Source: an uncultured Alteromonadaceae bacterium
Lineage (GTDB): Bacteria; Pseudomonadota; Gammaproteobacteria; Enterobacterales; Alteromonadaceae
DNA length: 46,215 nucleotides
Assembly (NCBI GenBank): GCA_950073835.1
Contig: CATMRP010000022.1
Coordinates: 1-46,215 of the forward strand
Reading direction: 5' to 3'
The translations under genes and the position numbers were made by a program. This document shows, piece after piece, positions 15,681 through 17,656 of this stretch (position 1 is its first letter; the number at the start of each line of letters is the position of its first letter). Below the pieces are notes generated by a model. It was not told the DNA's origin. It was given only the letters and a program-made list of their open reading frames with translations, and searched no databases.

Positions 15681-16421
15681 TTACGTAATCGCGTTAGCGT
15701 CTTCGTAAAATCGTTTCTCCAGCAATTCATACTCTTCGTTTAATGCTTCAAACTGACCGTTTATTTTTTTATTAACAAAGGCGGCCATTAGTTTTCTGCC
15801 ACCGAGAATAATAGCCAGCGTCGCTACGCAGAATGAAATGGCCAACGATGACACCTCAAGCCCCATTCTGGCAATTACAGACAGCACCATTATCCAGGTG
15901 ATAAGGGTAATAACAATCCCTACACTGCGCAGAAACGAAGGCTGTTTCCCCAGAATCAGCAACAAACTTCTGATAGATGGATTTTTGGGTTTAACTGATG
16001 TCAGCCTGTTTGCGTAGCTTTCAATGTCAATTTGATTGTTGTGCTCTATCCCTTCGGAATCCAGAAACTCCCTGAGTCCCTGGCTAAGGTTAAAGGCGAC
16101 ACCTTTCTCCCGGGATTTTTGTATTCGAAAATCAACGAAATCTGCTGCCCTTTCGCCATAGCAGGCCATTACATCCTGGTAAATTCGGTTTTGCACCTGT
16201 TTGTCGGCATATTCACGGTACGCAAAATCGGTTGAGCCATCATTTTGTACCCAGTACACCACGGTTTCTGTTGCGATTAAGGCACCAAAGTCACTGATAA
16301 GATCATCAACCATTTTCTTTCGGAAGCTGCGCATTCTTACCGAGTTACCAATTGCGTTCCCCATAGCGGCGCCGACTGCCGCGCCTCCTGCAGCCATGGC
16401 AATACCTGTATTTCGACTCAT
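15681..16421 (-). CDS. Glycine-zipper membrane protein of unknown function (246 aa)
   Basis: The ATG at 16421 follows GAGG with a spacing of about 8 and gives MSRNTGIAM; the upstream in-frame ATG has no such site. Residues 6-28 are Gly/Ala-rich (GGAAVGAAMGNAIG), a glycine-zipper segment able to pack in a membrane. A soluble helical region (30-160) is followed by two adjacent membrane helices (about 165-210) and a charged C-terminal tail. No catalytic motif is visible and I do not recognise the family. It reads away from the possible gene remnant at 16481-16913. Confidence 0.65.
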   Translation of the reverse strand: MSRNTGIAMAAGGAAVGAAMGNAIGNSVRMRSFRKKMVDDLISDFGALIATETVVYWVQNDGSTDFAYREYADKQVQNRIYQDVMACYGERAADFVDFRIQKSREKGVAFNLSQGLREFLDSEGIEHNNQIDIESYANRLTSVKPKNPSIRSLLLILGKQPSFLRSVGIVITLITWIMVLSVIARMGLEVSSLAISFCVATLAIILGGRKLMAAFVNKKINGQFEALNEEYELLEKRFYEDANAIT

Positions 16422-16480
16422 AATAAGATCCTCATTATTTTTTAAGACAAACAGGTGATTCACTGAAGTTGTGTTCAGTT

Positions 16481-16913
16481 GTGGTGTACCGGCCTACCCC
16501 AAACAGCCCTTTTGATTCGACTATTGAGACTTATGGCTACCAACATCAGGTTGGCCACACCCTGGCTCACCTCACAGGCTAACCCCGCCTGCACTATTAC
16601 CTTAATGAGGCACCTCGCTGGAGTGTTATCGCTGCGGCGACAACAATTATCAAAGACACGACAAGGGTTTGGTATATCACTTATTTTCTGCTGCGCGCCT
16701 GCAATCGGGATTTTTATAAAATTCTCGATAGCAGCGCGGTTAAAGGCTTGATGAATGGAGTGCCTGCTTGCATAACTTACCTACCATTCGAGCTTATCAC
16801 CTGTGTCATGAGCGATAACGCGAGTGAAGTGTATAAAAGTCTCGACGCCGCTTTTTTATAACCAGCCAAACGCGCAAAGGTGGTGCTTTATAACGGCTAC
16901 TATGCGCCAACAT
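16481..16913 (+). pseudogene. Possible decayed coding frame
   Basis: One plus-strand frame reads as protein-like sequence interrupted by only two stops: NSPFDSTIETYGYQHQVGHT ... stop at 16580-16582, then 92 open codons (including YYLNEAPRWSVIAAA and NGVPACITYLPFELITC) to a stop at 16859-16861, then KVVLYNGYYAPT and a stop at 16911-16913. There is no convincing start or ribosome site. The composition looks coding-like, so it could be the remnant of an inactivated gene, but I recognise no family and chance is possible. Apart from this, the interval 16422-16960 holds nothing I can name. Confidence 0.3.
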
Positions 16914-16981
16914 AGGTCATTTGTGTGGTATTGGGTATTCTCCTATAACTTATCTCATTGTTTAATATGCAATTATTAACA

Positions 16982-16997
16982 TGGCATTGTTAATGCT
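16982..16997 (+). promoter_or_regulatory. Sigma-54-like promoter of cynS
   Basis: TGGCAT-TGTTA-ATGCT fits the RpoN pattern TGGCAC-N5-TTGCW with the essential GG and GC exactly 10 bases apart and two mismatches. Transcription would start near 17008, just before the leader hairpins. It overlaps an inverted repeat, ATTAACA-N6-TGTTAAT (16975-16994). A weak NtrC-like half-palindrome (GCGC-N7-GTGC, 16872-16886) lies upstream. The consensus is established; its use here is inferred. Confidence 0.5.
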
Positions 16998-17023
16998 TTC
17001 TGTTTAACACTAGATTGATTCAT

Positions 17024-17097
17024 AAACACGATCTATGTGTTTGAGCAAAGACGCTCATGCTGTGCCAGCTTGCTGGTAACGGCATGGGCGTTTTTTT
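17024..17097 (+). promoter_or_regulatory. ANTAR-type antiterminator/terminator leader of cynS
   Basis: Three elements follow each other. Hairpin 1 is AAACAC/GTGTTT (17024-17042) with a 7-nt loop. Hairpin 2 is TGAGC-AAAGAC-GCTCA (17042-17057), whose hexaloop has A at position 1 and G at 4, the signature of RNAs bound by ANTAR regulators such as NasR/NasT. A terminator follows: ACGCTCATGC (17051-17060) pairs with GCATGGGCGT (17082-17091) and ends in seven T. The terminator's left arm shares bases with hairpin 2, so the folds exclude each other, as in nitrate/nitrite-assimilation leaders. Hairpin 1 does not have the canonical hexaloop, which is the weak point. Confidence 0.6.
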
Positions 17098-17144
17098 GTG
17101 CCCGAAACTTAATATCGTTTAACCCAATACAGGAAGCTAACATC

Positions 17145-17594
17145 ATGATTACCGATCGTACCCAGGTTACTGCAATGATCCAGTCTGCCAAAATTACCAA
17201 GGGCATTAAATGGTCTGAAATCGCCGAAGTTGTCGGCCAGTCAAAAGAATGGAGCACAGCGGCATGTTTAGGTCAGATGGCCATGACTAAGGAGCAGGCG
17301 GAAGGCGTAGGTTCACTGCTCGGACTCAGTGATGAAGCTGTGGCCTGGCTGCAAATTGCGCCTTATAAAGGTTCTTTGCCCACTGAAGTCCCAACCGATC
17401 CGTTAATATATCGCTGGTATGAGCTGGTAAATGTTTATGGCACCACGCTTAAAGAGCTTATCCATGAAGAGTTTGGTGACGGCATCATGAGTGCTATCGA
17501 CTTCTCCATGGACTTACAGCGCGAGGAAGACCCTAAAGGCGACAGAGTTCACGTTGTGATGTCAGGTAAATTCCTGCCTTACAAAATGTATTAA
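17145..17594 (+). CDS. cynS: Cyanate hydratase (cyanase, 149 aa)
   Basis: Cyanase converts cyanate and bicarbonate to ammonia and CO2, detoxifying cyanate and supplying nitrogen. The N-terminal 75 residues form the helical DNA-binding-like domain and the C-terminal part the catalytic domain (YRWYELVNVYGTTLKELIHE, FGDGIMSAIDF, GKFLPYKMY). The three catalytic residues of the family are all present: Arg in YRWYE, Glu three positions later, and Ser in GIMSAID. Length matches the usual 147-156. The ATG at 17145 has AGGA 10 bases upstream. No cynT carbonic anhydrase or cynABD transporter is adjacent. The leader (sigma-54-like promoter and antiterminator) suggests control by nitrogen supply. Confidence 0.95.
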   Translation: MITDRTQVTAMIQSAKITKGIKWSEIAEVVGQSKEWSTAACLGQMAMTKEQAEGVGSLLGLSDEAVAWLQIAPYKGSLPTEVPTDPLIYRWYELVNVYGTTLKELIHEEFGDGIMSAIDFSMDLQREEDPKGDRVHVVMSGKFLPYKMY

Positions 17595-17624: not shown

Positions 17625-17656
17625 GCAACCTAACACCGTTTAGGTTGCGCCTTTTT
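17625..17656 (+). terminator. Intrinsic terminator of cynS
   Basis: GCAACCTAA (17625-17633) pairs with TTAGGTTGC (17640-17648) over a 6-nt loop and is followed by GCCTTTTTATTT. Confidence 0.85.

Follow-up and report, generated by a model that had tools for sequence, protein, structure and literature searches.

A putative NasR-type antitermination leader behind a sigma-54-like promoter precedes the cyanase gene cynS in an Alteromonadaceae bacterium

The window, that is the whole stretch of 46,215 nucleotides analysed here, comes from an uncultured Alteromonadaceae bacterium and contains a cynS gene encoding cyanase, preceded by the promoter and leader features collected in Table 1. The closest named relatives of this cynS are those of Alteromonas species (89-91% identity) and, by inference from these matches, Alteromonas was used as the genus for the comparisons reported below. 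The nearest long gene upstream of cynS (15681-16463) lies on the opposite strand. No recognised gene of the same strand was found before the leader terminator, the list of open reading frames giving only a putative 90-aa frame at 16479-16751, so that this terminator probably does not close another gene and most likely sits within the cynS leader. A terminator-like hairpin following cynS suggests a one-gene transcript. Further along the window, between 28016 and 35848, the translations resemble by eye a cbb3 oxidase / copper ATPase / FNR-type regulator cluster.

Table 1. Features of the cynS locus, in coordinates of the window.
Feature	Position	Strand	Basis
Weak NtrC-like dyad GCGCAAAGGTGGTGC, 8/10 positions of GCACC-N5-GGTGC	16872..16886	+	4% of 300 shuffles as good
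Sigma-54-like -24/-12 element: TGGCAT (16982-16987), N5, ATGCT (16993-16997)	16982..16997	+	sequence; GG-N10-GC in relatives
P1 hairpin AAACAC-GATCTAT-GTGTTT, non-canonical 7-nt loop, abuts P2	17024..17042	+	sequence, stem variation
P2 antiterminator hairpin: TGAGC (17042-17046), hexaloop AAAGAC (17047-17052), GCTCA (17053-17057)	17042..17057	+	terminator/hexaloop scan, R1 match, covariation
Intrinsic terminator, mutually exclusive with P2: 5' arm GCTCATGC (17053-17060), 3' arm GCATGGGC (17082-17089), T7 (17091-17097)	17047..17097	+	fold, terminator scan, covariation
Putative ribosome-binding site AGGAAG	17131..17136	+	sequence
cynS, cyanase, 149 aa	17145..17594	+	NCBIfam TIGR00673 174.8 bits (cut-off 113.3), NF002773 223.2 bits
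Terminator-like hairpin 3' of cynS, GCAACCTAA/TTAGGTTGC then T5	17625..17656	+	by eye

The original prediction, made from the letters of this DNA, had described a sigma-54-like element with GG and GC 10 bases apart, an AAAGAC hexaloop hairpin whose right arm is shared with a terminator ending in T7, and a first hairpin with a 7-nt loop, and all three were read in the sequence at the positions of Table 1. The hexaloop of the hairpin called here P2 has A at its first and G at its fourth position (A1/G4) and is closed by a C:G pair (17046/17053), the pair preferred by NasR. Its 3' arm doubles as the 5' arm of the terminator, and the two structures exclude each other as they do in ANTAR-responsive leaders. 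Folding of the region 16999-17097 gave a z-score of -7.7, none of 200 shuffled sequences being equally stable, a value mostly due to the terminator. In the unbound RNA the terminator is strongly favoured (-39.9 kcal/mol versus -27.7 kcal/mol when P2 is forced), and NasR binding would therefore have to act during transcription. A covariance-model check proposed with the original prediction failed with Rfam, in which no family reached threshold and three weak matches fell around cynS, and succeeded with the model of nitrate leaders described below. One of the weak Rfam matches, MicC, lies over the leader but scores 19.7 bits where the cut-off is 90, and was rejected.

The GG (16983-4) and GC (16995-6) dinucleotides of the sigma-54-like element belong to a GG-N10-GC motif with a TGGCAY core, and this motif is present in all 12 standalone cynS leaders compared. 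Transcription from sigma-54 promoters usually starts about 12 bases after the GC of the -12 element, and this spacing predicts a start near 17008. NtrC, one of the ntr products whose presence the original prediction had asked about, is encoded in the genome (758.8 bits). The upstream dyad, scored against the NtrC consensus, is at most suggestive of an NtrC site and belongs to one of 13 promoters tested; dyads at these 13 promoters were too weak to be retained as a group, the best at each promoter matching 5-9 of 10 positions with shuffle P values of 0.02-1.0.

NasR/NasT-type ANTAR proteins bind paired hexaloop hairpins and block termination in nitrate-assimilation leaders, and nasF of Klebsiella has a sigma-54 promoter. 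A search of the genome (4.9 Mb, 301 contigs) for such a protein, as had been suggested, gave a single ANTAR match, a NasR-like protein of 427 aa (L002:9402-10685) that carries the NIT (Pfam, 184.6 bits) and ANTAR (65.6 bits) domains together and aligns with the structure of Klebsiella oxytoca NasR (4akk) at an E-value of 9.5e-38. Of the two predicted types of regulator, NasR and NasT, the protein is thus of the former; a genome search for a NasS-like sensor (PF09084) returned one weak match of 22.1 bits. The nasR gene adjoins the nitrate assimilation operon, being divergent from a row encoding an FNT-type nitrite transporter, a PP2C/kinase fusion, nirB, nirD and nasA. The FNT-transporter gene of this row has a leader with the layout of the cynS leader, comprising a sigma-54-like TTGGCAT..TTGT, a hairpin CGGAT-AAAGGC-GTCCG and a terminator sharing the 3' arm of this hairpin. 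A second leader precedes nirB inside the FNT-kinase-nirB cluster (L002:13870-14040), with the sigma-54-like element TTGGCACTTAACTTGTA and an attenuator whose AACGAA hexaloop is carried by a stem of only 3 bp.

This arrangement was scanned for in the form of strong terminators whose 5' arm overlaps a hairpin with an A1/G4 hexaloop and a stem of 4 bp or more. In 22 sources (the window, L002 and L144-L163), 14 of 93 terminators qualified, all of them leaders of FNT transporter (10), cynS (2) or nirB (2) genes, and the remaining 79 terminators include no such leader. Among 140 further loci (L004-L143), many of which overlap the first 22 sources, 20 of 158 terminators qualified, repeats of the same leaders included; the matches in L018 and L057 look like chance and were discarded. 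A covariance model, R1, was then trained on 15 FNT/nirB leaders and on zero cynS leaders, its training set omitting the two cynS leaders then known, the near-duplicate FNT leader of G063, the Acinetobacter leaders, the FNT leader of G160 (whose P2 has only 3 bp) and the nirB leader of the present genome, which was not yet known. When the 4.9-Mb genome was searched with R1 (150 of 1178 first-look candidates scored, E-values being rough because of a short calibration), three loci were found at E<=0.2, namely the FNT leader (a training member), the cynS leader (32.5 bits, E 0.011) and the nirB leader (E 0.108). Five matches were obtained at E<=10, including the other strand of the FNT leader and one on C99 (E 2.75) that lies opposite a 296-aa open reading frame and was taken as chance. 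R1 recovers 10 of the 11 standalone cynS leaders of the genus at E<=0.1, that of G198 being the exception, and it misses the standalone cynS leader of G053.

Of 59 genomes sampled in the genus, 40 carry cynS, which is operonic in 29 and standalone in 11. All operonic copies follow the kinase gene and start 2700-3062 bases after an R1 match on the same contig and strand; cotranscription of these FNT-kinase-cynS operons is assumed from gene order, and none of the 29 copies has, according to the scan, a hexaloop/terminator leader of its own immediately upstream. A private hexaloop/terminator leader lies directly upstream of every one of the 11 standalone copies, with the hexaloop AAAGRC in each. 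Counted over related genomes, and thus not independently, an ANTAR protein is encoded by all 40 genus genomes with cynS versus 6 of the 19 without, by 45 of the 47 (out of 59) with an R1 match at E<=0.1 (exceptions G223 and G242) and, in a sample of 196 genomes of the family, by 28 of the 29 matched by R1 at E<=0.05 versus 95 overall, by 18 of 19 R1 genomes when the ten that supplied or seemingly match training sequences are set aside, and by 36 of the 37 that carry cynS. An FNT and/or kinase gene was found near cynS, on the same strand, at 27 of the 30 cynS loci retrieved from the family sample. The exceptions are the present genome and two genomes from outside the genus with standalone cynS, G053, which has a terminator leader with the hexaloop ATCGAG, and G065, which has no hexaloop/terminator leader. 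In other genera, rows in which cynS stands first, upstream of FNT (L102, L104, L112 and L113), gave no match in the hexaloop scan; by eye, the GG-N10-GC promoter motif seems to be kept and the attenuator to be absent before cynS. Two separate matches make up cynS in G215 (L233), and in G235 the ANTAR match falls within a short open frame of 65 aa; broken genes or assembly errors may explain both.

Cyanase converts cyanate to ammonium and CO2. Taken together, these results lead us to propose, with a probability of about 0.82, that cynS is controlled by NasR-type antitermination on a sigma-54 promoter and is co-regulated with the nitrate/nitrite genes. The layout, its conservation, the covariation presented below, the presence of the regulator and the co-occurrence are read directly in the sequences, and from them we infer promoter use, NasR binding, the nitrate/nitrite signal and read-through. 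Under nitrogen limitation the sigma-54 promoter, probably together with NtrC, would drive transcription of cynS and, when nitrate and nitrite are absent, polymerase would by default stop at the terminator after a leader of about 80-90 nt. When the NIT domain of NasR takes nitrate or nitrite, the ANTAR domain would bind the AAAGAC hexaloop of P2, which, held by NasR, would sequester the 5' arm of the terminator and allow polymerase to proceed into cynS. In this manner cyanase would come under joint control with the uptake of nitrite and the reduction of nitrate and nitrite, through the FNT-kinase and nirB leaders. The original assignment of cynS to the nitrate/nitrogen regulon gains support from NasR, NtrC and the recovery of the leader by R1, with control at the RNA level as its probable means. 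According to the available part of PMC6627978, nitrate/nitrite transporters may also import cyanate in another bacterium, in which case joint control would be sensible. Against this model stand the first hairpin without a hexaloop and the loss of NasR residue R340 in the clade (both considered below), the strong preference of the unbound RNA for the terminator, the apparent lack of an attenuator in the cynS-first rows of other genera and the failure of R1 on G198 and G053; moreover, cynS may merely travel with nitrate assimilation.

The original prediction spoke of paired hexaloops, and this part did not hold, as the portion of this cynS leader upstream of P2 contains no A1/G4 hexaloop closed by 3 bp or more. 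An alternative P1 with an 11-nt loop, given by the unconstrained minimum-energy fold, was rejected because its longer pairing is absent in close relatives, which keep the 6-bp/7-nt form. The cynS leader thus falls outside the two-hairpin definition of ANTAR leaders (as given in the accessible parts of PMC3369931 and PMC7496416), and the proposed switch is better described as a variant of the NasR/nasF mode. It is unlikely that the leader nevertheless works as a canonical two-hairpin element, with P1 also bound by the ANTAR dimer despite its loop. The P1 stem that abuts P2 in 9 of 12 leaders does covary, all six pairs being standard and five of six varying, in a register set by hand and over four distinct stems, since six of the nine are identical (G198 and G235, with no recognisable P1, and G053, where P1 is placed differently, are left out). 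Clear extra A1/G4 hexaloops are moreover carried by the Acinetobacter FNT leaders and by one (G149) of 14 FNT/nirB leaders of the clade, which has two before P2; of the other leaders in this set, seven have no A1/G4 hexaloop of at least 3 bp before P2 and six have weak ones only, with stems of 3-5 bp that contain no more than one G-C pair and that in some cases overlap P2. Against such a role of P1, its loops in the standalone cynS leaders are of 7 or 4 nt (GATCTAT, GGTCTAT and AACTTAC; TGTT and AGCG at full pairing) and share no A1/G4 hexaloop, and its linker to P2 is of 0 nt, compared with 5-12 nt in the eut leaders of Enterococcus faecalis, where a linker of 3 nt impaired induction (PMC3369931, available part). 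The NasR of K. oxytoca has an affinity about 12-fold lower for P2 on its own (~12 versus 1 uM; PMC7496416). In the G149 FNT leader (L148), some 80-100 nt separate the extra hexaloop hairpins (AATGAC and ATCGAT) from the terminator hairpin downstream of them, and a GG-N10-GC element was seen by eye further upstream. The Acinetobacter loci L021, L031 and L034 show an apparently canonical P1 (ATGGC-AATGGC/AACGAC/AATGAC-GCCAT) together with P2 in an FNT-kinase leader divergent from cynS, with little space for a leader on the cynS side.

The predicted nitrate-pocket pair E175/R176, numbered as in PMC7496416 and placed on the protein of this genome by manual count, is kept (AGQERA in the alignment with 4akk). 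R340, described in PMC7496416 as near-universal and essential for RNA binding and placed by the 4akk alignment, is replaced by Q; among 15 NasR sequences of the clade (G098 left out), 12 carry Q at this position, two H and one L. With D at the position of E191 and Q at that of R340, the protein does not retain the published autoinhibitory pair. That difference, and the possible sharing of nitrate/nitrite carriers by cyanate in other bacteria (PMC6627978, in part), would suit the same leader being induced through the NIT domain by cyanate, or by cyanate too, and not by nitrate/nitrite alone. We nevertheless consider this quite improbable, as the same NasR serves nirB/nasA, for which nitrate or nitrite is the sensible signal.

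In alignment A3, which holds 10 of the 12 standalone cynS leaders (G198 and G053 left out), 98% of the P2 cells are paired versus 22-56% when the arms are slid, three of the five pairs have changed on both sides (a number reached by 6 of 500 shuffles) and the covariation score is reached by none of 500 shuffles. Additional pair types are no more numerous than in shuffled alignments, 374 of 500 of which have at least as many. The hairpin pairs, whose conservation in relatives had been proposed as a check, are thus kept with compensatory changes. Because the 5' arm of P2 lies outside the terminator, covariation between the two arms of this hairpin speaks for P2 itself. Pairing, with covariation at some positions, is likewise seen between the 3' arm of P2 and the other side of the terminator, and such a dual pattern is the one to be expected of an either/or switch. 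These data, and the AAAGRC hexaloop of all 11 genus leaders, make it very unlikely that a sigma-54 promoter is simply followed by a fixed terminator, giving a short RNA or constant attenuation independently of ANTAR control, even though no other fold comes near the terminator in stability and sigma-54 control of cyanate lyase has been predicted elsewhere (PMC12316311, as far as its available text goes). Ribosome-mediated attenuation through the leader peptide frame MCLSKDAHAVPACW, some form of which extends over P2 and the arm of the terminator in six of nine close leaders, is hardly credible given that the frame is missing in G209, G205 and G232, that its C-terminal end is variable and that no clear ribosome-binding site was seen before it.

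The preferred reading, NasR-type antitermination through P2, invites a broader one, which we advance tentatively and as the less probable side of the wager: Alteromonas and its kin would have added cyanate breakdown to the nitrate regulon through a divergent NasR-RNA recognition, with one canonical hexaloop P2, an abutting second hairpin of free loop in the cynS leaders, a NasR devoid of the near-universal R340, and a private leader in each searched genus genome with cynS outside the operon. That the departure of P1 and the loss of R340 belong together is a guess. If NasR does control cynS, cyanase would answer to an RNA-binding protein that senses nitrate and not to a cyanate-dependent activator, cyanate and nitrate use would be linked in a marine genus, and nitrate or nitrite, not cyanate alone, is predicted to turn on cyanase. 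These leaders and regulators would also form a natural set in which to ask if ANTAR proteins follow the two-hexaloop rule in general.

ANTAR leaders, NasR and, as a prediction, sigma-54 control of cyanase (PMC12316311, available text) are already known. The apparent novelty lies in cyanase as the target of an ANTAR leader, with an atypical first hairpin; in agreement with the original prediction, searches of the open-licence PMC literature yielded no paper describing such a leader for cyanase. The cynFABDS operon of Pseudomonas pseudoalcaligenes likewise has a predicted sigma-54 promoter and is repressed by ammonium but, unlike the system proposed here, it needs CynF, is induced by cyanate and gives only basal cyanase on nitrate, and the available part of PMC6627978 mentions no RNA leader. 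The EutV-responsive eut leaders of E. faecalis share the A1/G4 hexaloop hairpin at the 5' base of the terminator and differ in responding to ethanolamine through a two-component REC-ANTAR regulator and in having two canonical hexaloops with a linker of 5-12 nt (PMC3369931). The NasST/NasT leaders of Paracoccus and Bradyrhizobium also act by antitermination of nitrate assimilation/respiration genes, with NasS as a separate sensor (accessible parts of PMC5424462 and PMC6759348), whereas sensor and ANTAR domain are here in one protein. The closest likeness is to K. oxytoca NasR/nasF, with its NIT-ANTAR regulator and its A1/G4 hexaloop hairpin closed by C:G and overlapping the terminator (PMC7496416, in part), from which the present case departs in its cyanase target, in a P1 that abuts P2 with no A1/G4 hexaloop, and in the R340 to Q change of NasR.
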